Part shown: one piece after another, positions 15,543 through 41,060 of the stretch
How positions within the stretch are numbered: the first letter of the stretch is position 1
Layout of the letters: each line of letters begins with the position of its first letter
DNA from: Arenicellales bacterium
Lineage (GTDB): Bacteria > Pseudomonadota > Gammaproteobacteria > Arenicellales > JAJDZL01
DNA: 64,000 bases
Assembly: GCA_958295885.1 (NCBI GenBank)
Contig: OY282380.1
Location: 3,100,001 to 3,164,000, forward strand
Direction: 5' to 3'
Notes under the pieces: generated by a model
What the model was told of the DNA's origin: nothing
What the model saw: the letters and a program-made list of their open reading frames with translations, nothing else
The model's database searches: none
Translations under genes and position numbers: made by a program

Positions 15543-16700
15543 ATGGATACAACGGCTGTTCAAACTCGAAAAAGGCTGAGAAGGACAGTGCTCCCTCTCA
15601 CGGCAGGCATTGTTGTTTTCGGCTTTCAGCTGTCCGGACAGTTCGGAGCAGGCTTAGGCTACGGACTGCTGCTGGTTTCGGTAATCACGCTTTTCGGAAG
15701 TCTTTGTTCTGTTTTGCTGTTGCTGCTGACCAGGGGATTTTCTGCGAAGGCGCTAAGTCATTCGGCTCGATGGTTATTTTGGCTGGGCGCATGGTTTTAT
15801 GTCATCGGAGTTCTCGCACTTTCCGGATACTTCATCAGTGAAGCGCTCGCTGGTCGCGTCGACCTGAAGTGGATCTTCTTCGGTCCCGCTGCCATCATCA
15901 GCCTGATTCTGTTTGACATCGGCATCTATCGAATCGTAGTTCAGAAGAATAAACCTTCATGGATGCGTTATCGAGATGTGATTTCCCGCGAGCACATGCA
16001 GCCCGACAGAATGCGAAAAGTTTTGATGCAGGACGTGGTGTTTCATACGAAATTATTTTCCCAGAGTGGATTGAGGTGGCTGCGGCACACGCTGATGCTT
16101 TGGGGATTCGTACTGATGTTCGCAGTTGAGATATTTGCCGTGTTCGTGCGAGAGGGTTTTCCAGCCTTTGGATTCCCGGACATCTGGGAAATCTCTAATC
16201 ATCCCGTTCGTCTTGCATTTGATTTTGCATTCGATTTCTTTGGTTTTATGGTTTTGGTCGGATGCCTGCTTTCATTTCTTTGGCGAATCAGAGCGGCTGG
16301 CACCGAAGAAAAGAAGTATTCCGATACCCCGTCTGCCGTTTTCTTGTTTTTCGTGGTCATTTCGGGATTTTTCGTTGAAGCAGTGCGCCTGATTCAAGAC
16401 GGAATTCCGCCTGGAAGTGGAATTTCATTTGCCGGGTGGTTTCTTGCATCGATGATGTCGAGCGGCGGTGCCACGTTCAGTGGCGCGTACACGCCCCTGT
16501 GGTATTTTCACGTGTTCGGTTCTTTGGCATTCATCGTATACGTTCCGGCTCATCGGCTTGCGCATTCCTGTGCAACCCCGATCGGAAGGTTGATGAATTC
16601 ACAGACTGATCTGCTCGAAAAAAAACGCATTCGGTCGATCAAAGGTCTGATGCAGAAAGCAAATCAGTCAATTATTACTAATGTTGAGATGGATAAATGA
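15543..16700 (+). CDS. Multispanning membrane cytochrome-b-like protein (NarI/HdrE-like)
   Basis: 385 residues with about eight hydrophobic segments. Histidines near membrane segments, including LRWLRHTLMLWGF, ISNHPVRLAFDFAF, WYFHVFGSLAFIVYVPAHRLAH, fit a di-haem b arrangement like nitrate reductase gamma and heterodisulfide reductase HdrE-type subunits. It lies among cytoplasmic redox and methyl-transfer genes, so it is the likely quinone-linked anchor for the ferredoxin and molybdenum subunits. The stop overlaps the next gene by 4 bp. The family match is by topology and His placement; heme content is inferred. Confidence 0.72.
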   Translation: MDTTAVQTRKRLRRTVLPLTAGIVVFGFQLSGQFGAGLGYGLLLVSVITLFGSLCSVLLLLLTRGFSAKALSHSARWLFWLGAWFYVIGVLALSGYFISEALAGRVDLKWIFFGPAAIISLILFDIGIYRIVVQKNKPSWMRYRDVISREHMQPDRMRKVLMQDVVFHTKLFSQSGLRWLRHTLMLWGFVLMFAVEIFAVFVREGFPAFGFPDIWEISNHPVRLAFDFAFDFFGFMVLVGCLLSFLWRIRAAGTEEKKYSDTPSAVFLFFVVISGFFVEAVRLIQDGIPPGSGISFAGWFLASMMSSGGATFSGAYTPLWYFHVFGSLAFIVYVPAHRLAHSCATPIGRLMNSQTDLLEKKRIRSIKGLMQKANQSIITNVEMDK

Positions 16701-17503
16701 GTCAAATCATTGCGATTTATGGAAAAACCTGCTGCTTAAAGTCCGATGTTGCCCGCGCTATTTCGAGGCTGACCGGATACAAACTGGCGAGTCGCGGCGA
16801 ATGGATTACGACGTTGGCCATGATGGACAAGCTCAAAGGCGGCATCGAAATCGATCTGGACGTACATCGTAAATTGGACGAAGAAACAAGGTCGATGGTT
16901 TCGTGGTCGGACCCGGTCCTGATTTTAGAAAGTCGGTTCATGGATGCTGTGCTGCACGAGATGGACGACATATTTTTTGTGCACCTGACAGCTGACGACG
17001 ATGTCAGGAATCATCGGTGGGAGCATCGGCGCGAAGAAGGAGGTGGCCGAACCAGACAGATTGGGGACGGAGTGGCCGCACGCGACCGAGAAGATGAACA
17101 GCTGAGCAATCTGTTGTATGCAGATGCAAAGCCAGTTGCTCCCACGATGGCTTTTGATACTTCAGAGGGTACTGCAGAGGACTACGCCCTTCAGATCTGG
17201 TCGAAATTTACGGGCGAGGATTTATCCTATCTGCAGGTAGCGGGCACGACGGAAATGGACAAGAAGCAGACAAAAGGTCTGAAACCTGGACCGTCTGCAG
17301 GCGAAGTTGCCGTCTACAACGCACTGCGGAATCCGTTCGGAGGCTATATTACCGATGATTTAAGCGGACGGAATGTGTTCATTCATAAAAGTGTTGTTGA
17401 AGCGAGCGGACTCAAAGAGCTTTCTCAAGGCCAGAGAGTGACATATGTAATCGTTGAAGACGGGTTTGGAGGTTTCCGAGCGTCCAATGTTGAGGCGGAG
17501 TAG
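16697..17503 (+). CDS. Cytidylate-kinase-like P-loop protein fused to a cold-shock domain
   Basis: 268 residues. Residues 4-19 (IIAIYGKTCCLKSDVA) form a P-loop in which the second Gly is replaced by Leu (GxxxxLKS). RDREDEQLSNLLYAD resembles the lid/substrate region of CMP-kinase-like proteins. Residues ~205-268 form a cold-shock domain: GEVAVYNALRNPFGGYI, VFIHKSVVEASG and LSQGQRVTYVIVEDGFGG. The combination suggests a nucleotide- or RNA-responsive role, not a classic CMP kinase. It overlaps the membrane gene by 4 bp (ATGA), so translation is probably coupled. Function unknown. Confidence 0.75.
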   Translation: MSQIIAIYGKTCCLKSDVARAISRLTGYKLASRGEWITTLAMMDKLKGGIEIDLDVHRKLDEETRSMVSWSDPVLILESRFMDAVLHEMDDIFFVHLTADDDVRNHRWEHRREEGGGRTRQIGDGVAARDREDEQLSNLLYADAKPVAPTMAFDTSEGTAEDYALQIWSKFTGEDLSYLQVAGTTEMDKKQTKGLKPGPSAGEVAVYNALRNPFGGYITDDLSGRNVFIHKSVVEASGLKELSQGQRVTYVIVEDGFGGFRASNVEAE

Positions 17504-20777: not shown

Positions 20778-23700
20778 ATGAGGGGATACACTACAGATTA
20801 CGTCAATCTGATTGCAGACAATCTTCGGGACCGTTATCAGAACGGCTTCCCAATCCTCAAGGAGCTGATTCAGAATGCCGATGACGCCAAGGCTCGCAGA
20901 TTGATCTTTGGAACACATAGTGGCTTCCCGGACACGCACCACCCGTTACTGAAAGGTCCCGGTCTCTGGGTCTTCAACGATGGTGTATTCACAGAGAGCG
21001 ATGCCGAAAATCTTCGATCCTTTGGCATCAGCGGCAGGGCCGGCGACAGCCATGTTATCGGTAAATTCGGCCTCGGGATGAAGAGCGTATTCCACCTTTG
21101 CGAAGCTTTGTTCTACGTAGCGAAAGGCAAGGATCAATTTTATTGCGAGGGACTTAGCCCCTGGATAACAGACAGCAATAGACGAAAACGTGGTTTCATG
21201 AAGTTTATTCCAGAGAGACGTAAACACAGGAAAAAAGAGCGCCGTACACTACATGAGGAATGGGACGAAATCAGTCAAAGTGATTGGAATTATTTGAAAG
21301 ATCTCGGTAAGAAATTGGCTGCCGACTCAAGTCAAAATCGAACTTGGTTTCTGCTGTGGCTTCCCTTGCGAAAGAGAGAGCATCTGCAAACAAGTGCAAA
21401 TGAGGAGATGGGGTGCATCATCAGCCGATTTCCGGGTGACGATCCCAATCCTGATCTTGAATTTCTATATGATGAACGCCTTGCTTACGACATGGCAGAG
21501 ATCCTTCCGTTACTGCGACATCTTGGGAGCATTGAGCACAAAGGGGAGAAAAACTCCTTCGTGTTAGAACTATCTGTTGAGCAACGGCTTCTAGCCAGTT
21601 GTCCTCGTACCGAAATCTGCGGCGAAGTTCAGCTGTTTGGCGGACATCAGCCACTTGACTTTTCTGGGCTGAGGGACATGAGTGAGGACAGTTGTTTTAA
21701 GGACATGAGGAATTTGGAAACGTGGCCCAGCACTCGGTATCGCGACGAATTGAGACACGTGTGCTACGCCTCAGATAGATCCAAGCCGGAGGCGGCAGTG
21801 CTGTTCTACTCCCGTCCGAGCAGCGAAATCTTTTTTCATGTTCACTGGGCAGTGTTCCTGCCGGTGGAGGACCACGCTGAAGAACTTGAAAAACGAACCT
21901 ACTCTCTAGCTCTTCACGGCCAGTTTTTCCTTGATGCAGGACGAAAAAAGATCCATGATTTTAAACATTTGCACGATGAGCCGAAGGCTATAGATAGAAC
22001 TACTATCGACGAAAGATTGCTTCGCAGGGCCTGGAATCAAAGACTGGCCCAAATGGTCTTGCTCCCACTGGTGCTGCCTGCCTTGCAATTGCACGTCAAG
22101 AAACAGAAATTATCCGACAGTGAGTGTACCTTACTGACTGAGGCTATCTGCAAATCTGACTTTTTCACTAAATTCCAGCAGTATATCTGTGGGAATAGCA
22201 TATGGCTGCGCACACTACAGCGCGGTGCCGACTCTCAATGGCGTCTGATCGAGGGAGATTGCTGTTCTCGGTTGCGACCTCTCCCAAATCCGCCGAATAA
22301 TGAATTAAATCGACCTTGGCAGGTGTTCCCTAAACTTAGCGATCACGTTATACCCTATGATGTTGACGAAACGTACCTAAGCAGTATGCAAAGTCCGGGC
22401 GCGTGGCCGAACGAGGAACTTGATAAACTGCTGACTCGGGTACATGGCTTGTTTGAGAGTGCTACGCACATGGATTATCTGATCGAGTTCCTCAATACCT
22501 GTGTGAGCGATGAACACAGAAGTTCCTGCCGCTTTCAGCGTCGGTTGCTGGACATAATGAGAATCGGACTGTCAAATTCCGAGCCCGCTAAAAGGCGTCA
22601 AGTGGCAAAAAAGGGAAGCAGACTCGTCGGAATACTCGATTCGAATATGCGGTTGGAAATCTCGACTAATTTACCTGAGTCGATTCTAGACGATTTGTGG
22701 AATATTGACGCACCGCTTTTGCTTGTCCCAAACGGAATGGATTCGGAACCCAAAGGTAAAGCTTCTCCCGATGAGGAGACATTGGCTGAATGGCTGAAGA
22801 TACTGGACGAAGCCTTAAAATTACGAGCGAATCATGGAGATCGGGAGCGGATAATCGGGGCAATACAAGGGTTGCTGCGAGCTTTGCCCGAGGCAGAGCG
22901 GCGGCAATTTCTACAGCAGCATCAGACACTCAAAATCATCAAGGTGCAGGATGCACCGAACGGCGCGGATAATCTACTGTCTGTCGAAGACCTAAATCAG
23001 AGAAGGAACGCTGGCACTCTATTCCGTTTTGCGGGAGGACTAAGGAGGGCAGTGATGGGAATCACTCCGCGGCTTGCTAGGGCGATTCCCGATGCCAACG
23101 TCTGTTTGATCAACACCTATACCTGCCGCGATATTTTTGGGGACGAACACGACATTTCCGGTGCTAACAATGAATTAGCCAGTCTGGCGGCCGTAGGTAA
23201 TTATTGTGGTCAATTGGGAAGCATTGCCGAGCGGCGAGCATTGCTTGAAAGCGCTAACAATCCGGGAACAGACGATATGGCGCTGCGCGGCCTGAGATTC
23301 CTGTTGCACGGCTCGCGCGGCAATCGCGAAGACGACGAAATTCAGCTCTGGGTCCAGCGGCTTGACCAACACTCAGCTTGGCGTAGCCTCTGGGCTGAAA
23401 CGCACCCCAATAGGGAGTGGAGCCTCATACGCAATGAACTTGTCGACGTGGTGCCTCGTAACCTCTGGAACCGGGCGCAAATCGCTGAGATTGACGCCCA
23501 AAATCTTATCGAATTGTTGGACCGAGAGGAAGTTACCATCGAGAATCCGGAGGAATTCTTAGTCGAAGAGCGCAACGAGATCCTATCGAAAATCACGAAT
23601 ATGGGTCTTTGGCGGCGGCTGCCGCTACATTCGACGGTGGATGAACGCCTCACCTCGGTTACTGAATATGTCTATCTGGAAAACCCGCAGATATACTTTG

Positions 23701-26700
23701 ATGTACCGTCGAACTGCGGAGTGACCTTGATCGCGTTGAACGAGAACGAGGATGTTGCAGACAAACAAAGGCGCTGGCTGCGTCCCCTGGACCGCGTTGC
23801 CGGAATAGAAATCTGGTTGAACACCCCGAATCCTGAAGTTTACTGGTGTGAGATCATGGACGCGGTGAACGGGTTGCAGGACAATATTCCGGTCGATTTG
23901 GGAGATCAGCTACGAGAAACAGTCTGGCTTCCAACGGCTGACGGCACACCGGTCAAGCCTAGAAATGTCATCGAATTCCGAGAGTGTCTTGAAGATGAAG
24001 CCCATCTCATCGTCACCAATCATCGGAACCCTAATAGGACCCGTTACGCTGTACCCGATGAATTCAGTGCAGAAGTACAAGCTCACAATGCGTGGAAGCT
24101 GATCCGTGATGTAGGATTCTCAGCTGAAGATGAGGGGCTGGATCTTCTAGCGCGGTTACTGGAAGACTTGCCGGACTATCGTATCGGAGATTGGCAAGAG
24201 CCGCCGGCTGATTATGTAATGAGACTATTGGCTCACAACAAAGATCTTCCGGGCTGGCGATTGTTAGAGAGGGTAGCTAATTCGTTCGACCTGGAGACAG
24301 CGTGGGCCAAACTTAGTGGCGCACTCTCGCAAGAGATCCAAGTTGAAATATTGACAACAGTGCTCAACTGGCTCGCCGAGTCTAGAGACGAATGGGATGT
24401 CCGAAAATCAGCCCACGATTCTTACTTGAGACAACTGGCGAGTCAACTGCAGACGCGCAATCAAAATGGAGCCGCTTTCCTCAATGAACTGAAGCTTGCG
24501 GCCGCCAACAAATCTTGGCAGAATGCGAAAAATTTGTGTGCCGGTGCGCACAGCGTAGTTGCAGAAAAACTTTTAGACCAGCATCAGCTACACATGCTCG
24601 GGAACCTTATCTGCAACGCGATTGCATGCGAATATGATGAGGTCAGGCGTCAAAATAATGGCGAGTTTGACGAAAATCATGTCGGTGATGTCCTGTGTAA
24701 TTACTTTAAAACTTGGGATGCGAATCTTGTGCCAAGACCGATGATCGGTTTGGTACTGGCTCTGCTCGGGCAGGATTTCAGACCAATTGCCAACGATTAC
24801 CTGAGTCCGCACAGCTTTGAGTGGATTGTCAGACAGCTGCCGTGGCGTGCTCCGAGCTCTCGTCCTTATAAGTTTGACTCGTACTCTCAAGAGTGGCGAG
24901 TGATAGATAACTGGATGGGAGGCAGAAACATATATGAGGCACTGGATTGCATTGTCGCGAACGTGGGAGTGCACCATTTGGAAGATACAATTCAGGTGCT
25001 GAACCTCCAGGGTGACTGTATTGAGGTTTCTCTCGACCCGAATATTGATAATTTACTTATCGGTGGAATTGAGCGGCAGAATGAGTACAACGTGAGGATT
25101 TCCTTTCGTAGCATTGATGTTCGCAAATACAATCCAGCGCAGCTCCGCGAAATGCTGCGTGCTACCGCTGAAATCCTCTATCACCGTATTTACAATCAAA
25201 ATAACGTAAACTTCGACAATCTTTGGCAAGAGCTGGATCAAAGCCATCAGCTCGAAATTGAGGTTGCCCGTCGCCTGATTCTCAACCATATCCCGTTCTA
25301 CCTCCGTCAGCTCACCGTAAGATGCGAGACTATTGAGCAGCATCTGGAGATTTTCGATCGTTTACGGTATCGGATAGCCGAGGCAGAAATTGACAACGAA
25401 AATTTAGCGGATGACTACAGGCAGATATGGCAAAACGCACTCGACAATCTTGCTTGTTGCATCGACCAAAACCCGAATGTACAGAATGCTGTGGTGCAGG
25501 CTGTCAAGGATAAGCTCAAACAATATCAATACGATCTGTCCAGCATCCCGTTGGAGTTGTTCCAGAATGCCGACGACGCTGCCGTCGAGCTGGGCCAGTT
25601 CCATGCCCCTCTTCTCGAAGGTCGTCAAGTGCCATCTGAAGCACAGTACTTCGTGGTGGAAGAACGGGAAGACGGTCTAAGGTTCATTCACTGGGGGCGG
25701 CCGGTCAACGCCCGCGGTCCAGTTGGATTCGACGGTGAAAATCGAGGCTATCACCGCGACTTGGAAAAGATGCTCATCCTGTCTTCCACCGACAAGCTCA
25801 ATGATGACATTGTGACCGGCAAGTTCGGACTCGGGTTCAAGAGCGTATTGCTTGCCTCCGAGCAACCTCGAATTCTAAGCGGTCACTTGGCCATCCGTAT
25901 CGCGGCGGGAATATTGCCACAAATTTGGGATGATCCCGATGAAGCGCAGCAGAGACTCCGATTTCATAGCCGCCAGAATTGCAGGCTACCTGGAACACTC
26001 ATCGATTTGCCAGACGTAAACAAAGAGCACCGCGATTATCTTCTTCAACGATTTCGGCAACTAGCGGGAATCCTTTGTGTCTTCGGTCGAGCCATCCGAA
26101 CCATTAAGCATGTTAATTCAGAGACGCAAACGGACTTCCGCTGGCAATGGCAGCCAAGAGAGATCTGCCACGGCGTGGAGATTGGAGAATTGGACCTGAA
26201 TGGCAAGGGCGTTCGCACAAAGGCACTTTGTATCCGCACCGACAACGGTAGTGTACTAATGGCCATCGGACCCCAAGGGTTTCGTTCTTTGCCGGATGAC
26301 GTACCTGCACTATGGGTCACTGCACCGACCCGAGAATCCTCGGATGTTGGCTTCGCTGTCAATAGTGATTTTGATCTAGATGCCGGCCGCGGACGATTGG
26401 CTGGCAACCCAGAGAACAACTTGCAAAAAGCGAAGGAAATTGGCAGCAAGGCCGGTGCAGCTCTTAGTGTCTTGTTCAAACATTCCAAACATTCTCGTGA
26501 AAATTGGGTCTCTGTACAATCGGACTTGAGTCTAACGAAGAACCTTGACATACTGAATTTCTGGGAGAGCATCTGGTTGGGACTGACAAAGAGAATATTG
26601 AAACGCCATCGTGGCAACGGAGGAAATCTTACATGGGAGGTCGCATTTGGCGCGCTTACTCAACTGTGCAACTGTGACTGTCCTCGTGTGGTTCCGAACG

Positions 26701-28331
26701 GTTTGAAGGGGTCGTTGCGTGCATTTTCGAATGTGAAAGAGATACGCTACGAGTTTAGGGGGATTTTGCTAGGCGAAGAAATAGGGAAATGGTTGAGTAA
26801 CTGGGAACGTTTTAAATCTAAATATCGTGGCGAGGAGTGTGTTTCCAAAGAAATCGCTGACATTCTGAGAAATACCGATGTCCAAATGGATAAGCTACAG
26901 CCCCTTGACCTCTTTGCACTGGTGAATTTGTTGGAGAACGACCGGGTCAATTCCGAAGATGCCGAAGTGTTGGGACGGTTGTACCTTCTGACCAAGAATG
27001 CGCCGGACTGGGGATCGAAGAACCTGATGAAACGTCTCAAGAAGCTGTCATTTCTGTCCCAGAATGACCGGTGGACTGAGTCCCAGAGGCTGTTAGCGAG
27101 TCACGGAACTGGTCTCGACTTGGATGAGCCACGAAGACACTCGTTGGCACCGCGTAAATGTCGCATGCACTCCGACTACTACGTGGAATCGGCCGATGAG
27201 CCGGCAGTAACATTCTTCCGAATTTGCCGCCAACGTATGCAGGCACCTCCAGAGAAGATCGCTGATTGGGTGCTGGCTGCGAACTCTGACGAGGAACGAC
27301 GCAACGCTCTTTTCTACCTTGTCGACGGTGAGCATGGTGAGCGAGTCGCTGAGCTCGTGCGTGGAAAAGAGTGGCTGCAGACTGCGCTCTATCTTCCCAA
27401 TCTAAAGGAATGGTTAAAAGAAGAACAACTGGACAAGCTACGTCGTCTTCTAATCCGACAATGGCAAATCCATCAAGCCGTTTCTCAGAACGGAAAACAC
27501 CCGCTCGATCATGATGATCTGCTCCCTAATGTAAGTCTTGATGTCGCTATGAATCGACTTTACGAATGGTCGGAAAATGAGGGTTGCGAGAAGATCAAAA
27601 ATTACAGAAGTGACATTTTTCCCAACGATACCCCAATCCGTGATTTAGCCCCAAAGATTGGACTGCTCCACCAACCTTCATGGTTTCTGCTTCTCGCATT
27701 GGGAAGCTTCCAGAGCATTGGCCGTACCAAAGATGGACAACATAGTAGATTTATCCGCCTTTGTCGGGATAAGGGATGGTGGCAAATCTTTACAGAGTGT
27801 GATCCGAAGGAACAACCCGAGAGGTGGATGGATGTCATTGAGGAGTACGCCGACGAGCAGCATGATGATGAGAAATGGATTCAATGGCTAATGCAATTCC
27901 CTAAGCTTTATCGGCTACGTCGTTGGCTGGACGATTACATCAACCTCTTCCTGTCCATTAACCGATTTCAAGGACCATTCAATCGCGACACAATTCTTGC
28001 TCCAAAGGCTAGCTCTGAATTTCAGGGTGGCGGCATTGACCCACCCCCGCTTACAAGAACGTTGAAAGTCGGTTTCCCTTTCGTCGTTCGGGAACTGCTA
28101 TATCGCGGTGTGGTCAACAACCGCCACGCAGTTCCGCATGCGTATGCGCCAATAGAACGCATTCGGCGCTTTTTTCGCGCGTTTGATGAAGAAATTGAAA
28201 CGTCAGAGAAAATTCACGAGATTCTGACGGAACACTTAGGTGAGGAAAAGGCCAAATTCAACGGAGCTTACGACATTCCACTTCGGATTGTTTCTGCTTC
28301 TGCTTCGTTACGCGATAAAATTCTTTTATAA
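20778..28331 (+). CDS. Giant sacsin/Hsp90-like protein with two GHKL ATPase modules
   Basis: 2,517 residues from the ATG at 20778 (GGAG, 7-nt spacing); an extension to the TTG at 20697 is less likely. The first GHKL ATPase module is residues ~10-180: N-box ELIQNADDAKA (29-39), the FNDGVFTESDA loop near 65, and GKFGLGMKS (95-103). A second module is at ~1590-1800: LELFQNADDAAVE, then LSSTDKLNDD and GKFGLGFKS (1681-1689). This resembles the repeated ATPase modules of sacsin. The ~1,400 residues between and the C-terminal ~700 residues show no domain I know. An SNF2 helicase is encoded 80 bp downstream, which suggests a DNA-directed defence or repair complex. Confidence 0.85.
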   Translation: MRGYTTDYVNLIADNLRDRYQNGFPILKELIQNADDAKARRLIFGTHSGFPDTHHPLLKGPGLWVFNDGVFTESDAENLRSFGISGRAGDSHVIGKFGLGMKSVFHLCEALFYVAKGKDQFYCEGLSPWITDSNRRKRGFMKFIPERRKHRKKERRTLHEEWDEISQSDWNYLKDLGKKLAADSSQNRTWFLLWLPLRKREHLQTSANEEMGCIISRFPGDDPNPDLEFLYDERLAYDMAEILPLLRHLGSIEHKGEKNSFVLELSVEQRLLASCPRTEICGEVQLFGGHQPLDFSGLRDMSEDSCFKDMRNLETWPSTRYRDELRHVCYASDRSKPEAAVLFYSRPSSEIFFHVHWAVFLPVEDHAEELEKRTYSLALHGQFFLDAGRKKIHDFKHLHDEPKAIDRTTIDERLLRRAWNQRLAQMVLLPLVLPALQLHVKKQKLSDSECTLLTEAICKSDFFTKFQQYICGNSIWLRTLQRGADSQWRLIEGDCCSRLRPLPNPPNNELNRPWQVFPKLSDHVIPYDVDETYLSSMQSPGAWPNEELDKLLTRVHGLFESATHMDYLIEFLNTCVSDEHRSSCRFQRRLLDIMRIGLSNSEPAKRRQVAKKGSRLVGILDSNMRLEISTNLPESILDDLWNIDAPLLLVPNGMDSEPKGKASPDEETLAEWLKILDEALKLRANHGDRERIIGAIQGLLRALPEAERRQFLQQHQTLKIIKVQDAPNGADNLLSVEDLNQRRNAGTLFRFAGGLRRAVMGITPRLARAIPDANVCLINTYTCRDIFGDEHDISGANNELASLAAVGNYCGQLGSIAERRALLESANNPGTDDMALRGLRFLLHGSRGNREDDEIQLWVQRLDQHSAWRSLWAETHPNREWSLIRNELVDVVPRNLWNRAQIAEIDAQNLIELLDREEVTIENPEEFLVEERNEILSKITNMGLWRRLPLHSTVDERLTSVTEYVYLENPQIYFDVPSNCGVTLIALNENEDVADKQRRWLRPLDRVAGIEIWLNTPNPEVYWCEIMDAVNGLQDNIPVDLGDQLRETVWLPTADGTPVKPRNVIEFRECLEDEAHLIVTNHRNPNRTRYAVPDEFSAEVQAHNAWKLIRDVGFSAEDEGLDLLARLLEDLPDYRIGDWQEPPADYVMRLLAHNKDLPGWRLLERVANSFDLETAWAKLSGALSQEIQVEILTTVLNWLAESRDEWDVRKSAHDSYLRQLASQLQTRNQNGAAFLNELKLAAANKSWQNAKNLCAGAHSVVAEKLLDQHQLHMLGNLICNAIACEYDEVRRQNNGEFDENHVGDVLCNYFKTWDANLVPRPMIGLVLALLGQDFRPIANDYLSPHSFEWIVRQLPWRAPSSRPYKFDSYSQEWRVIDNWMGGRNIYEALDCIVANVGVHHLEDTIQVLNLQGDCIEVSLDPNIDNLLIGGIERQNEYNVRISFRSIDVRKYNPAQLREMLRATAEILYHRIYNQNNVNFDNLWQELDQSHQLEIEVARRLILNHIPFYLRQLTVRCETIEQHLEIFDRLRYRIAEAEIDNENLADDYRQIWQNALDNLACCIDQNPNVQNAVVQAVKDKLKQYQYDLSSIPLELFQNADDAAVELGQFHAPLLEGRQVPSEAQYFVVEEREDGLRFIHWGRPVNARGPVGFDGENRGYHRDLEKMLILSSTDKLNDDIVTGKFGLGFKSVLLASEQPRILSGHLAIRIAAGILPQIWDDPDEAQQRLRFHSRQNCRLPGTLIDLPDVNKEHRDYLLQRFRQLAGILCVFGRAIRTIKHVNSETQTDFRWQWQPREICHGVEIGELDLNGKGVRTKALCIRTDNGSVLMAIGPQGFRSLPDDVPALWVTAPTRESSDVGFAVNSDFDLDAGRGRLAGNPENNLQKAKEIGSKAGAALSVLFKHSKHSRENWVSVQSDLSLTKNLDILNFWESIWLGLTKRILKRHRGNGGNLTWEVAFGALTQLCNCDCPRVVPNGLKGSLRAFSNVKEIRYEFRGILLGEEIGKWLSNWERFKSKYRGEECVSKEIADILRNTDVQMDKLQPLDLFALVNLLENDRVNSEDAEVLGRLYLLTKNAPDWGSKNLMKRLKKLSFLSQNDRWTESQRLLASHGTGLDLDEPRRHSLAPRKCRMHSDYYVESADEPAVTFFRICRQRMQAPPEKIADWVLAANSDEERRNALFYLVDGEHGERVAELVRGKEWLQTALYLPNLKEWLKEEQLDKLRRLLIRQWQIHQAVSQNGKHPLDHDDLLPNVSLDVAMNRLYEWSENEGCEKIKNYRSDIFPNDTPIRDLAPKIGLLHQPSWFLLLALGSFQSIGRTKDGQHSRFIRLCRDKGWWQIFTECDPKEQPERWMDVIEEYADEQHDDEKWIQWLMQFPKLYRLRRWLDDYINLFLSINRFQGPFNRDTILAPKASSEFQGGGIDPPPLTRTLKVGFPFVVRELLYRGVVNNRHAVPHAYAPIERIRRFFRAFDEEIETSEKIHEILTEHLGEEKAKFNGAYDIPLRIVSASASLRDKILL

Positions 28332-28411
28332 GCTATGGTGAATATTATGATATTTCGTGTAGAGAAGTCGTTGAATCGACATGTAAATCCTAAGAAAGAC
28401 GAGGCCTTGTA

Positions 28412-31063
28412 GTGTTCAGAAAGGATCAGCAAGTTCACCACTCTCGCTTCGGGACAGGACGTGTGATCGCTGATCAAGAAGGCAACACTGTCTATGTCCG
28501 CTTCGGAGATCACATAGAGTCCTGTGAAGCTGATAGCCTGTCCCTACGCTTGGCAGTTGCTGATGAGGTGAAGCAGGGCCAATGGTCTCCGTTGCTGAAT
28601 GTAACTCTTAAAGGCCAGGCTGCGGCCATACGTTCGTTGAACGATGCATGGGGGGTATTCTCCCGTTCGCGCATTGATCTTCTTCCTCATCAGCTCTGGG
28701 TCTGCCACCGGGCGTTGCAGCAGTGGCCTATCCGGCTGCTGGTTGCTGATGACGTCGGATTGGGAAAAACCGTAGAGGCTGGGTTGATTCTGTGGCCCTT
28801 GCTTTCGAGCGGCAAAGTCAGGAGGCTGTTGATCCTGACACCTGCCGCACTCGTGGAGCAATGGCAGTTCCGGCTGCGAACGCTATTCGACATTCGTATG
28901 TCAATGTATCGCCCTGATGTGGATCGGCCCAGAGCTGACTTCTGGAATACCCACCACCAAGTCATTGCATCCCTGCAGACATTGCGTAGCGATCACGCAG
29001 GGAGACACGAACGGCTTTTTGACGCTCCTGTCTGGGACATGCTAATTGTGGATGAGGCGCATCATCTTAATGCCAACGAACAAACAGGCAGTACGCTAGG
29101 TTATAGGTTTGTCAGACGTCTGATTACGGAGCAACGCGTACAGTCATGCCTTTTCTTTACGGGCACACCGCATCGAGGTGATCCATACGGTTTTTGGTCA
29201 CTGTTGAAACTGCTTCGTCCGGAGGACTTCGATCCCAACTTGTCGGATGATGAGCAACTGCCGCTGCTGAGGGATGTGCTGATCAGGAACTTCAAGCAAA
29301 AGGTTACCGACATGGCGGGTGAACAGTTGTTTCAGTCTGTCAACAACAATCCCGAAACCTATGATTACTCAGATACGGAAGAGAAATTCTATCAGCTCCT
29401 GACAGACTTCATTCTCGCGGGGAACGCCTATGCGTCAAGACTGAGGCTGAGCCAGCGTCAACAGGTGAATCTGGTTCTCATCGCCATGCAAAAGATCGCA
29501 TCCAGCTCGGTCGCTGCAATCCGTGCAGCACTGGCCAGACGATTGTACAAACTCAATAACGAAGTAGATGAACTGCGAGAACGTTTTGAGGCAGAATATC
29601 CTCCGGGCGTGGAGGATGCCGATGAAATCGGCGCACTTAATCGCTGGATGAATCAACAAAGATTTCGGCTGCTGGAGGACGAGCTGCCTCACCTCAAGAC
29701 TTTGCTTGAAGCTGCCGAGCAAGTAGAGGAAGAAAGCAAAATCGCTCGCATTGGCGAGATCATTGAGAACCAGTACAGAGACCGTTCTATTCTGTTGTTC
29801 ACTGAGTATAAAGCAACCCAGGCCCTGATGGTTTCGACGCTCATGATGCGCTTCGGCGAAGACCAAGTGGGCTTCATCAATGGGGATGATCGTTTGCTCG
29901 GCGTTCGAAAACCATCAGGCGAAGAAGTCACACTCTCGGCAAACCGTGAAACGACAGCGGCGGCGTTCAACCAAGGCAGAATTCGATTTCTCGTTTCCAC
30001 AGAAGCAGGCGGTGAAGGAATCGACCTTCAGGAGAACTGCCATACGCTGATCCACGTAGATCTGCCGTGGAATCCGATGCGACTCCATCAGAGGGTTGGT
30101 CGATTGAACCGTTATGGTCAATCTCTACCCGTTGATGTCGTTACTATACGAAACCCTAGTACTGTAGAATCCAGGATCTGGACTAAGCTGGAAACCAAGC
30201 TTGGTCACATCATGGAGGCTCTCAGCTATGCCATGGACGAGCCCGAGGACTTGATGCAGATGGTCATCGGCATGGCTGGTCCAGATTTCTTTAATGAGCT
30301 GTTTACGCAGGGACAGTCTGTAGGGCCGGAACGCCTTGACGAGTGGTTCGACGCGAATTCTCGGAGTTTAGGCGGAAAGTCTGCGATTGAGACCGTGAAA
30401 GACTTGGTAGGTCATTGCCAAAGCTTCGATTTGTCCCAACTCGAGGATGTTCCAAAAATGGACTTGCCGGATCTGGAGCCTTTCTTCTACGGATCACTTA
30501 TCAAGAATCGGCGCAGACCGGACCGGACAGGCAGGTCGTTCAGCTTCAGAACACCTAAAGAGTGGCTCGGCTCCCCAGGCGTACGGCAGCGTTACGATAA
30601 TTTGATCTTTCGCCGTAGTCTCCGCGACACTGAGGAGGCCATACAAATTGTGGGCGTCGGGCATCAGGTGTTTGATCAAGCACTGTCCCAAGCGGCGGAC
30701 ATGGACGGTGGATTGGCGCTGTTTCGAGAGTCCAACCATCCAATGGCGGTGTTTCAGATACAGGATGCGGTGACGAGCCGGCAGGTTCACTTACGTCAAG
30801 TGGTCGTTGCTGTTACGGAAGGACAGGGGAATGGATTAATACTGTTGCAAGACGAACAGATTCTGGAGCAGCTGAATCAGCTTCGACCAAGGCGAAAGGA
30901 GAGGAATCTCGCTGATCTATCGATTTCGAGTGAGTTGATGTTGGATTGGCTAAATCAAGCTCGTGCCCACGCCTTGAGAGAGGTCTGTAGCCTCAAACTG
31001 CCATTTAAGGAAATTCTGATTAGTGATCTGGCACTATTTTGGCCGAATGCGTTAAAACTTTAA
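28412..31063 (+). CDS. SNF2-family helicase/ATPase partner of the GHKL protein
   Basis: 883 residues from a GTG at 28412, 80 bp after the GHKL gene. Helicase motifs are all present: Walker A DDVGLGKT (113-120), DEAH at 214-217, TGTPHRG at 250-256, TEAGGEGIDLQ near 530, and QRVGRLNRYGQ near 560. The first ~50 residues (VHHSRFGTGRVIADQEG) form a small beta domain like those at the N-terminus of RapA/HepA-like SNF2 proteins. The C-terminal ~240 residues are unassigned. The enzyme should translocate on double-stranded DNA. It is probably co-transcribed with the GHKL protein and ends at a terminator at 31255. Confidence 0.92.
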   Translation: MFRKDQQVHHSRFGTGRVIADQEGNTVYVRFGDHIESCEADSLSLRLAVADEVKQGQWSPLLNVTLKGQAAAIRSLNDAWGVFSRSRIDLLPHQLWVCHRALQQWPIRLLVADDVGLGKTVEAGLILWPLLSSGKVRRLLILTPAALVEQWQFRLRTLFDIRMSMYRPDVDRPRADFWNTHHQVIASLQTLRSDHAGRHERLFDAPVWDMLIVDEAHHLNANEQTGSTLGYRFVRRLITEQRVQSCLFFTGTPHRGDPYGFWSLLKLLRPEDFDPNLSDDEQLPLLRDVLIRNFKQKVTDMAGEQLFQSVNNNPETYDYSDTEEKFYQLLTDFILAGNAYASRLRLSQRQQVNLVLIAMQKIASSSVAAIRAALARRLYKLNNEVDELRERFEAEYPPGVEDADEIGALNRWMNQQRFRLLEDELPHLKTLLEAAEQVEEESKIARIGEIIENQYRDRSILLFTEYKATQALMVSTLMMRFGEDQVGFINGDDRLLGVRKPSGEEVTLSANRETTAAAFNQGRIRFLVSTEAGGEGIDLQENCHTLIHVDLPWNPMRLHQRVGRLNRYGQSLPVDVVTIRNPSTVESRIWTKLETKLGHIMEALSYAMDEPEDLMQMVIGMAGPDFFNELFTQGQSVGPERLDEWFDANSRSLGGKSAIETVKDLVGHCQSFDLSQLEDVPKMDLPDLEPFFYGSLIKNRRRPDRTGRSFSFRTPKEWLGSPGVRQRYDNLIFRRSLRDTEEAIQIVGVGHQVFDQALSQAADMDGGLALFRESNHPMAVFQIQDAVTSRQVHLRQVVVAVTEGQGNGLILLQDEQILEQLNQLRPRRKERNLADLSISSELMLDWLNQARAHALREVCSLKLPFKEILISDLALFWPNALKL

Positions 31064-34884: not shown

Positions 34885-35307
34885 ATGGCCGATGAACGGA
34901 AGCAAAAACACTTGGAACTGATACAAGGCGTAATTAACCGACTTTCTACAAACTCGTTTTTATTGAAGGGTTGGAGTGTTATTCTGGTTTCTGCGTTATT
35001 TGTGCTTTCTGCTGCCGACGGGCAAGCCGCTTTTGTGTTCCTAGCTTCTATTCCTGTAATTGTATTTTGGGGTTTAGACGGCTTTTTTCTATGGCAGGAA
35101 CAACTGTATAGAAAGCTCTATGATCATGTCCGCCAGATCAATGATAGCGACATTGATTTTTCGATGGATACCGAACCATTCGAAAATGAAGACCGTTCGC
35201 CAACGTGGGCGAAAGCCATATTTTCGAAAACATTAATACCGTTTCACGGCGTTCTGATTCTTGCTGTTATCGTCGTAGCGGGTGTAACAATCGCCTCTCA
35301 GGGATAA
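34885..35307 (+). CDS. Small two- to three-TM protein beside a TIR-like remnant
   Basis: 140 residues. A charged N-terminal helix (KQKHLELIQGVINRLSTNSF) is followed by two hydrophobic segments (GWSVILVSALFVLSA and AFVFLASIPVIVFWGLDG), a soluble stretch with KLYDHVRQINDS, and a third hydrophobic segment near the C-terminus (GVLILAVIVVAGVTIA). This layout is typical of small membrane proteins found next to TIR-like DUF1863 proteins in defence settings. It appears intact; the TIR partner next to it does not. Effector role is inferred. Confidence 0.7.
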   Translation: MADERKQKHLELIQGVINRLSTNSFLLKGWSVILVSALFVLSAADGQAAFVFLASIPVIVFWGLDGFFLWQEQLYRKLYDHVRQINDSDIDFSMDTEPFENEDRSPTWAKAIFSKTLIPFHGVLILAVIVVAGVTIASQG

Positions 35308-35312
35308 CAGCA

Positions 35313-35699
35313 AGCCAGTGCACAGAGTGTTTTAAGTTTCCATCACACGCCAAATAACGGGTGCGCGGCATCGATGTGATTGAAGGTAATAAGCCCGCAT
35401 CGGATTATGATTGGGAAACCGTGAAGAAAGGTGGAGATACGGCTATCGAGAAATGGATTGCCGATCAAATAAAAGGTCGATCCTGTACGGTCGTATTGGT
35501 TGGTACAAAAACTGCCCGGCGCAAATGGATCACTTACGAAATCATTCAATCGTGGAACAAAGAAATGGGCGTGGTTGGCATTTACATTCATGGCCTGACA
35601 AATTCAGATGGAAAGGTTTCCAACAAAGGCAGGAACCCGTTTGACTCAATTCGCTATAGCAACACCGGAAAATACCTATCTTCAATCGTGAAATGCTAA
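35313..35699 (+). pseudogene. TIR-like (DUF1863/MTH538-type) domain protein, N-terminus frameshifted
   Basis: From GTG at 35361 the frame reads VRGIDVIEGNKPASDYDW, KKGGDTAIEKWIADQIKGRS, VVLVGTKTARRKW, YEIIQSWNKEMGVVGIYIHG and KGRNPFDSI, the body of the TIR-like DUF1863/ThsB-like family. The family's N-terminal strand (SFHxxxD) is visible in another frame just upstream (VLSFHHTPNN, ~35322-35355), and TAA precedes the GTG in frame, so a small deletion has separated them. A protein starting at 35361 would lack the first beta-strand of the fold and is probably not functional. Confidence 0.65.
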
Positions 35700-39307: not shown

Positions 39308-39462
39308 GGGTAAAAACCAGTTGGTTTATAGGTTCCTCTTATTTTATGCCATCAACTGACGATGTGAAGTCCGGAATCTGCAAAAAGTTTGGCAAATATG
39401 TCGACATCCAGCAGGCAGCTGAATCATCAGGATGAGTTTCCTGCAGCTTAGGACAGGATGTT

Positions 39463-39599
39463 GTTCCCCAAATCGCTTCAAAAGTTCAAATGAGTGAACT
39501 TAATCAGAAGCAAGTCAAATAGCACGCTAGAGCTTGGTAACTGTTTCTATATTGTGGTTAAAGACATTTGACGGGGTAGGAGATAGGTTGGCCAGGGCT
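39463..39599 (-). pseudogene. Decayed partial copy of lipA
   Basis: Aligns without gaps to 38641-38777 in lipA; by hand I count ~105 of 137 identical positions (~77 %), with most differences transitions. It is in the same orientation as lipA and upstream of it. Flanking sequence (39308-39462, 39600-39845) shows no further obvious similarity and no intact gene; it is AT-rich toward the Fic gene. Confidence 0.85.
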
Positions 39600-39845
39600 C
39601 TCGGTGGTGATTCAAAGGTCAATTCATCCAATTCGGCTAGCCATATACGAAGAATTTTCAAGAATTCATAGTTGGGATTCAACAGGCAGCACTTGTGCAA
39701 TCATTTATCAAGATATTGACTTAAAATAATAAACAAATGAATGAATAATTAACTCAAAATTTATAAAATATATTTAATAAAAAACAGCATAAATACATAT
39801 AGATATAGATTTTAACTACAAAACTAACGATAATATTAGGATAAA

Positions 39846-41060
39846 ATGACACTACGATATAGAATTCCAGAACATTGGATTAAGTATGATCTTGTGGCAG
39901 TCATTGAAGAATTAGCAAATGCAAAAGCATCAATTTTTTCAATTGCAAGCTTACCTTATCAACAATCTTGGGCGCAAAACCTCCAAGAATTGGAACTAAA
40001 GCGGGAAGTGGCCGGCACTTCCCGCATTGAGGGTGCTGAATTTACTGATCATGAGTTTGAAGTAGCAGTATCGAGTGAGGTTGCTGGTAAATATTTCAGT
40101 CGATCACAACGACAGGCGAGAGCCGCAATCAATACATACCGCTGGATAGCGAAATTACCGTCGGATGTGTCAATCAATGAAGAGCTAATTAAACAGATAC
40201 ATAGAAGAATAGTTACTGGCTGTGACGACGACCACTGCCCACCTGGCAAATATCGTGAAGTTGATCAAAATGTCACTTTTGGTCGTCCACGGCACAGCGG
40301 AGTTGAAGGCGGGTCTGAATGTAAGTCCGCTGTGCAGTTACTTGTGAAGGCAGTGAACGGAGAATTCAATGCGCATGATGATTTAATCAAAGCGTTGGCG
40401 ATACACTACCATATTGGAGCAATGCATCCTTTTCCAGATGGAAATGGACGAACAGCGCGAGCAATTGAGGCTCTAGTTCTTCAACGTGCTCGACTGAAGA
40501 ATTCACTTTTTGTCGCAATGTCCAATTACTATTATGAAGAAAAGGATGCTTATCTAGATAGCTTGAGTCAAGTGAGGTTGAACAACCATGACCTCACTCC
40601 GTTTATTAAATTTGGCCTCCGTGGAATCGCACTACAGTGTGAGCGATTAGCCCAGCAAATCCGTGTTCACCTTCAGAAAATTCTTTTTCGTGACGTTATG
40701 ACAAAGATGTTTGGTCGATTGCGTTCTAAGCGAAAACGTGCTTTAGCTTTACGGCAATGTGAAATTCTCAACGAATTGCTTGTTCGAGATCAAGAAATAG
40801 AATATTTGGAGTTATATGAGAAATTGGAAATGCAATACGCTAACTTAAAAAAACCTCTGAGTGCATTTGTCCGCGACTTAAATAAACTTTCGAGTATGAG
40901 AGCAATTTCTGTTCGGCTAGAGGACGACGAAAGATTCGACTTCAATAGATACTTTGTTAGGGTGCGCGTGGAGTGGGCGACTGAAATTACCGAAACCGAA
41001 TTTTTTCAGAAAATTAATCAGCTGCCTCGAGCGAAAACTAAGTTAATCACCACAATGTAA
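39846..41060 (+). CDS. Class II Fic-domain adenylyltransferase
   Basis: 404 residues. The Fic motif HPFPDGNGRTARA starts at H194, and the inhibitory motif T58-S-R-I-E62-G63 lies N-terminal, the class II arrangement. An N-terminal RYRIPEHWIKY and a C-terminal region with a possible winged helix (~300-390) are also typical of the DUF4172/Fic-like proteins. Fic enzymes transfer AMP (or similar) to target hydroxyls; targets are not predictable from sequence. The gene appears intact. AT-rich DNA upstream and a neighbourhood of decayed genes suggest transfer. Confidence 0.92.
   Translation: MTLRYRIPEHWIKYDLVAVIEELANAKASIFSIASLPYQQSWAQNLQELELKREVAGTSRIEGAEFTDHEFEVAVSSEVAGKYFSRSQRQARAAINTYRWIAKLPSDVSINEELIKQIHRRIVTGCDDDHCPPGKYREVDQNVTFGRPRHSGVEGGSECKSAVQLLVKAVNGEFNAHDDLIKALAIHYHIGAMHPFPDGNGRTARAIEALVLQRARLKNSLFVAMSNYYYEEKDAYLDSLSQVRLNNHDLTPFIKFGLRGIALQCERLAQQIRVHLQKILFRDVMTKMFGRLRSKRKRALALRQCEILNELLVRDQEIEYLELYEKLEMQYANLKKPLSAFVRDLNKLSSMRAISVRLEDDERFDFNRYFVRVRVEWATEITETEFFQKINQLPRAKTKLITTM

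Follow-up and report, generated by a model that had tools for sequence, protein, structure and literature searches.

Two open reading frames on the same strand of Arenicellales DNA, one encoding a giant protein with GHKL ATPase modules and the next an SNF2-type helicase, raise three questions: whether the two genes form a unit, what such a unit does, and whether it already has a name. They lie in a stretch of 64,000 nucleotides, called the window here. The original prediction described an unnamed two-gene system without a nuclease, methylase or protease partner, acting against mobile elements. The pair is also a bacterial, genetically simple model of a sacsin-type multi-module ATPase; the ATPase cycle and clients of human sacsin (ARSACS ataxia) are poorly understood.

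Anatomy of the two genes

The features of the pair are as follows, all on the + strand of the window, with conservation given as sequences out of 49.

20778..28331, +, giant double-GHKL (sacsin/Hsp90-type) protein, open reading frame of 2,517 aa from ATG
20862..20888, +, module 1 N-box ELIQNADDA, residues 29-37; E29, Q32, N33 and D36 invariant (49/49)
21060..21086, +, module 1 G2 motif GKFGLGMKS, residues 95-103; G95, G98, G100 and K102 invariant (49/49)
21915..21944, +, module 1 HGxFFxDAGR motif, residues 380-389; H380, G381, F384 and R389 invariant
25554..25580, +, module 2 N-box ELFQNADDA, residues 1593-1601; E1593, Q1596, N1597 and D1600 invariant (49/49)
25818..25844, +, module 2 G2 motif GKFGLGFKS, residues 1681-1689; G2 glycines invariant in the 49 giants
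26361..26399, +, module 2 middle-domain motif NSDFDLDAGRGRL, residues 1862-1874; G1870 and R1871 invariant (49/49)
27375..28328, +, all-helical C-terminal region, residues about 2200-2517; conserved, mostly of high pLDDT
28412..31063, +, SNF2/RapA-type motor, 883 aa, GTG start; PF00176, PF00271
28412..28591, +, N-terminal Tudor-like domain of the motor, residues 1-60; profile match to the UvrD domain of 7egt, E 1.9e-5
28748..28771, +, Walker A DDVGLGKT, residues 113-120; 49/49 throughout, save L117 (42/49)
29051..29062, +, Walker B DEAH box, residues 214-217; D214, E215 and H217 49/49, A216 48/49
30089..30121, +, motif VI QRVGRLNRYGQ, residues 560-570; 49/49 save N566 (40/49) and Y568 (44/49)

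The start codon of the giant agrees in position with its homologues, which are 2,320-2,626 aa long. Two GHKL modules in one chain had been predicted, and the profile searches bear this out: Pfam SACS (PF25794, E 2.6e-29) and NCBIfam P_loop_sacsin (NF047352, E 2.4e-32) each match in two stretches, and module 2 matches module 1 in profile-profile comparison (E 1.3e-9), giving more than one ATPase module per chain. Among solved structures, sacsin SR1 is the nearest in sequence. The sacsin entry 5v44 matches module 1 at E 1.6e-24, far more strongly than MORC2 does (E 0.0016), and GKFGLGMKS aligns with GRFGIGFNS of SR1.

R389 is a candidate ATPase arginine of an Hsp90-middle-like domain, since its distance from the N-box (356 residues) resembles that of Arg474, the proposed catalytic arginine of sacsin (PMC9880540). 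The invariant arginine of module 2, R1871, sits within FxLDxGR and is a putative counterpart. The modules differ at motif G1, where module 1 has the usual N-D/N-G and module 2 has H-W-G-R; with HWGR replacing the usual NDG, adenine contact and nucleotide use may differ in module 2. Conservation climbs to 0.46-0.50 in the C-terminal region, with residues 2300-2517 highly conserved among the 49 sequences.

The second gene begins 80 bp downstream and, as had been claimed, encodes a full SNF2 motor, carrying SNF2, ResIII and Helicase_C domains with intact motor motifs. Its closest solved relative is RapA (E about 3e-47). The Tudor-type domain of UvrD/PcrA, which its N-terminus resembles, binds RNA polymerase. 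A terminator had also been placed behind the helicase; that claim is not borne out, as a search for terminators gave no candidate close to 31063 and no more hits than shuffled sequence did.

Pairing, distribution and surroundings

A single-sequence query found no match among genome contigs, and an alignment of four giants succeeded: used as a profile against 84,980 prokaryote genomes, it yielded 80 loci, to which loci from plasmids and from genomes of relatives were added. Pairing was counted over loci with a complete giant followed by 1.5 kb or more of readable sequence. A homologous helicase is the next gene on the same strand in 58 of 58 complete giants, these being the best matches of a search seeded from the window protein, with loci not de-replicated. 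In 55 of the 58 pairs the two reading frames overlap or are separated by no more than 64 bp, and the commonest spacing of the predicted genes is a 4-bp overlap. The three wider-spaced pairs belong to Thiocystis, Thiodictyon and Lamprocystis, where Phd/YefM antitoxin and PIN toxin genes are inserted in between (L012, 17560-18200; same spot in L016 and L039, all Chromatiaceae).

The reverse test gives the same picture. In 18 whole genomes all 20 helicases scoring above 780 bits are at giant loci, and the score then falls to 284 bits (785 versus 284). Among 72,556 plasmids the best five helicases (45-49% identity) adjoin giants, and the sixth drops to 27%. Giant-linked helicases form one clade with branch support 100/100 when set against 18 other SNF2 proteins. 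Pairwise distances of giants and helicases correlate at r = 0.86 with species kinship left in, a value reached in none of 2000 permutations.

According to record titles, paired loci occur in Pseudomonadota, Desulfobacterota (with Geobacter), Acidobacteriota, Planctomycetota, Gemmatimonadota, Chloroflexota, Verrucomicrobiota, Bacillota, Cyanobacteriota, Bacteroidota, Neomarinimicrobiota and Deinococcota. Several come from metagenome-assembled genomes, in which binning errors are possible; isolates alone place the pair in Pseudomonadota, Desulfobacterota, Planctomycetota, Cyanobacteriota and Deinococcota. The helicase partner is nearly always kept with the giant across about twelve phyla, and the two are almost certainly a conserved functional unit. 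Clustering of the neighbour genes found no third gene family recurring in more than 7 of 57 loci; no nuclease, methylase, protease or plasmid-maintenance gene recurs beside the pair, in keeping with the predicted lack of such a partner.

At some loci two overlapping or adjacent genes encode the giant, with the break near residue 800-840 (L007, L083, L034, L054, L072 and L086, mostly cyanobacteria); at others the giant is split near residue 1600-1700 (L011 and L042).

Divergent relatives point to the part of the giant that may meet the motor. In two cyanobacterial loci (L054, L072) and one plasmid locus (L010) the giant diverges or ends before the C-terminal region (about residue 2200, or earlier), and there is no helicase of the giant-linked clade; in L086 the C-terminus is replaced and the helicase is present as a remnant. 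Because the helicase-less relatives lack or replace the C-terminus, and because residues 2300-2517 are so well conserved, the comparison suggests the C-terminal region as a candidate helicase-docking part. At L065 (2228-12829) a distant Verrucomicrobial giant is followed downstream by a different SNF2 protein, so the partnership of giant and SNF2 protein may predate the giant-linked helicase clade.

In the window the pair is flanked by phoU and a PDC-M50A/B-like pair, with a SoFic-like gene farther on:

34885-35307, PDC-M50A-like gene
35361-35699, PDC-M50B-like gene with ThsB-type TIR; N-terminus about 20 residues short as called
39846-41060, SoFic-like Fic gene; a defence entry in PADLOC

The original prediction had called these neighbours defence debris. 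The defence-type context stands, but 'debris' gives way to identified genes: the PDC-M50A/B-like pair (34885-35699), whose second member has a ThsB-type TIR, and the SoFic-like Fic gene. The phoU and lipoyl synthase (lipA) genes are far apart in a same-genus relative (G004) used for an empty-site comparison. Beside the intact lipA of the window is a degenerate second lipA fragment with three stops (39431-39604). Elsewhere in the window (16697-17503) an AAA_18/cytidylate-kinase-like domain is fused to a C-terminal cold-shock domain, an unusual combination.

At other loci the surroundings are again of defence or mobile type. Many copies are chromosomal, amid restriction-modification (RM), DISARM or other defence genes; others are on plasmids of Deinococcus, Trichormus and Sphingomonas. 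On an IMG/VR contig the pair adjoins a type I RM operon and an integrase, a conjugation-type ATPase-like gene (judged by eye) lies near the pair in L003, and at L054 (17515-21822) the helicase-less giant is directly followed by BREX PglZ and BrxD. The DISARM genes drmA/drmB are near the pair at three loci only (L007, L017 and L061). The defence and mobile context is strong in qualitative terms. In numbers, pair-flanking genes matched 268 PADLOC models, versus 78 for control genes taken in equal number from those genomes, an excess that is only suggestive because the control regions contained BREX and Tiamat genes. The pair is rare: it is present in 2 of 145 genomes of a sample of relatives, the window's own included, and class- and phylum-wide samples gave at most one fragmentary extra match. 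No giant was found in the phage records searched. Homologues usually lacking the helicase, or housekeeping surroundings, had been named as findings that would speak against the proposal; the pairing and neighbourhoods described above do not speak against it. A housekeeping role is rejected, being contradicted by the patchy distribution and the defence or mobile context.

Predicted structures and proposed mode of action

AlphaFold models were made for giant residues 1-1180 (pLDDT 86.8) and 1566-2517 (pLDDT 89.4), with two plasmid-record sequences left out of the underlying alignments. Foldseek matches of the first model are sacsin SR1, DNA-bound MORC2, SMCHD1 and Hsp90; those of the second are Hsp90 forms, module 2 being likest the N-middle domains of Hsp90. 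The remainder of both models is mostly helical, and the best matches of both are GHKL proteins without exception.

What is directly seen for the pair comprises its anatomy, catalytic residues, strict pairing, co-divergence, and a mobile or defence context at many loci. We consider it likely that the pair is an antiviral (anti-phage) defence system. Our reading as a whole is tentative, and we hold it at less than an even chance: a horizontally mobile two-gene system against phages and plasmids, combining an Hsp90-like clamp gated by ATP with a motor that translocates on dsDNA. A clamping or remodelling mechanism without a nuclease is, taken by itself, likewise a possibility to be put forward with reserve.

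The steps would be these. The giant would be an ATP-gated machine of Hsp90/sacsin type, each chain carrying two catalytic modules, and the RapA/DrmD-like dsDNA translocase would dock on it, probably at the C-terminal region. The UvrD-type Tudor domain could recruit the motor to RNA polymerase or to the DNA travelled, and the motor would then translocate along invading DNA. An encounter with foreign or stalled complexes would trigger ATP-dependent closure of both GHKL modules, and the closed modules would clamp or remodel the DNA-protein complex, blocking transcription or replication, presumably with no cutting. A clamp on DNA moved by the helicase had been offered as speculation; the MORC2/SMCHD1-type and Hsp90-type folds, together with the UvrD-type Tudor domain on the motor, lend the idea some support. 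The more specific proposal is a widespread immune system in which a sacsin-type double Hsp90-like machine keeps foreign DNA silent through clamping or remodelling that depends on ATP, with neither nuclease nor methylation, its RapA-like translocase perhaps riding with RNA polymerase; we regard it as rather doubtful. If defence without a nuclease is true, the pair joins a small set of systems that act on foreign DNA by silencing and not by cutting, and if the silencing reading is true, the sacsin module architecture could plausibly stem from bacterial defence.

The strongest alternative, although somewhat unlikely, is defence by means of a destructive effector. Infection would be sensed by the helicase and GHKL modules; DNA or RNA would then be degraded, or the cell killed, in an abortive or restriction-like manner, either by the giant (through its C-terminal region or residues 1180-1566) or by an enzyme recruited from the host, as in GHKL-Shedu, which uses a fused nuclease. 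GHKL ATPases do keep such company: Vibrio cholerae VcSduA joins one to a nuclease (PMC12137116), and prokaryotic MORC/paraMORC operons have a GHKL ATPase gene and an SF2 helicase, in one class SWI2/SNF2, with nucleases in RM operons (Iyer et al. 2008, PMC2292703). The PIN-domain toxin-antitoxin pair between both genes in three Chromatiaceae fits this alternative too, and residues 1180-1566, which match no database entry, could hide an effector. On the other hand, searches with Pfam, NCBIfam, PADLOC and PDB sequence profiles recognised no nuclease or HEPN family in the giant, its top structural matches are all GHKL proteins, and no nuclease gene is recurrent beside the pair.

It is unlikely that the giant is instead an Hsp90/sacsin-like chaperone that remodels or disaggregates phage or host complexes (e.g. 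RNA polymerase or replisomes), delivered off the DNA by the RapA-like motor, with no clamping of DNA. The resemblance of module 2 to Hsp90 N-middle domains and of module 1 to sacsin SR1 would suit a chaperone, as would the kinship of the motor to RapA and its UvrD Tudor-type N-terminus; but no Hsp90 dimerisation domain was recognised in the giant, nor were the J and HEPN domains that animal sacsin carries, and module 1 also matches the DNA-bound MORC2 and SMCHD1.

Quite improbable is a role for the pair in the maintenance or transfer control of mobile elements (plasmids, integrative and conjugative elements) in place of host anti-phage defence. The plasmid copies in three genera, the conjugation-type gene in L003 and the integrase on the viral contig would agree with it, whereas the many chromosomal copies amid RM, DISARM and other defence genes, and the lack of a recurrent plasmid-maintenance gene among the clustered neighbours, count against it.

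Relation to named systems

Matches to PADLOC, Pfam and NCBIfam are confined to shared ATPase and helicase cores, upholding the claim that no named system fits. The likeness to Tiamat lies in TmtA, a large protein with an N-terminal sacsin-type GHKL ATPase that is listed as anti-phage in PADLOC/DefenseFinder. Seven PADLOC TmtA models match the giant essentially in the GHKL region only (best stretch 17-108; one model 1592-1727). The TmtA profiles are 1,302-1,655 long, and the likeness ends after about 100 residues. Tiamat is a single gene not known to have an obligate helicase, whereas the giant is not stand-alone. Membership in Tiamat is rejected, as there is no full-length TmtA similarity and the giant is not a single-gene system.

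The likeness to DISARM lies in DrmD, a RapA-like SNF2 defence motor; the PADLOC model PDLC02634 fits the helicase at full length with 881 bits. The NCBIfam DrmD model gives 276 bits against a curated cut-off of 610, and a DrmD above that cut-off (L136) falls outside the giant-linked helicase branch (support 100/100). None of drmA, drmB and drmC flanks the pair within the window, they are absent at most loci, and the partner of this helicase is a sacsin giant. DISARM membership is rejected on these features: absent core genes, the score and the separate branch. PDLC02634, labelled DrmD, probably mislabels giant-helicase loci as DISARM.

That the pair belongs to a named system, either as a subtype of DISARM or as a variant of Tiamat, is very improbable: the full-length PDLC02634 fit, drmA/drmB near three loci and the TmtA matches to the N-terminal ATPase favour it, but the helicase is far below the curated cut-off and outside the bona fide DrmD branch, the DISARM core is missing from the window and most loci, and TmtA models cover about 100 of 1,300-1,650 positions. 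A strict two-gene unit of about twelve phyla is without a name in the searched libraries, and current tools would label its halves Tiamat or DISARM fragments.

Two further relatives differ in other ways. RapA (HepA) is a housekeeping RNA-polymerase recycling factor, whereas the helicase of the pair is an accessory gene tied to the giant. Eukaryotic sacsin (SACS) shares repeated Hsp90-like ATPase modules and middle-domain-like parts in one giant chain, but has three repeats plus ubiquitin-like, J and HEPN domains, none of which was recognised in the giant, and has no known helicase partner.

A search of open-licence papers on sacsin- or Hsp90-like anti-phage systems with SNF2 helicases, which could miss a subscription paper, found no description of the pair. 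Because named systems match only in part and no paper was found, we call it an unnamed, probably defensive GHKL-helicase pair of sacsin-type architecture. MORC/paraMORC operons encode a GHKL+S5 module, endonucleases and often methylases (PMC2292703), whereas the pair has two sacsin-type modules in about 2,500 residues and no recurrent nuclease or methylase. A GHKL gene neighbouring an SF2 helicase is common to both, being found for all 58 giants, and of the concepts described so far, MORC/paraMORC operons that include SNF2 helicases come nearest to the pair.
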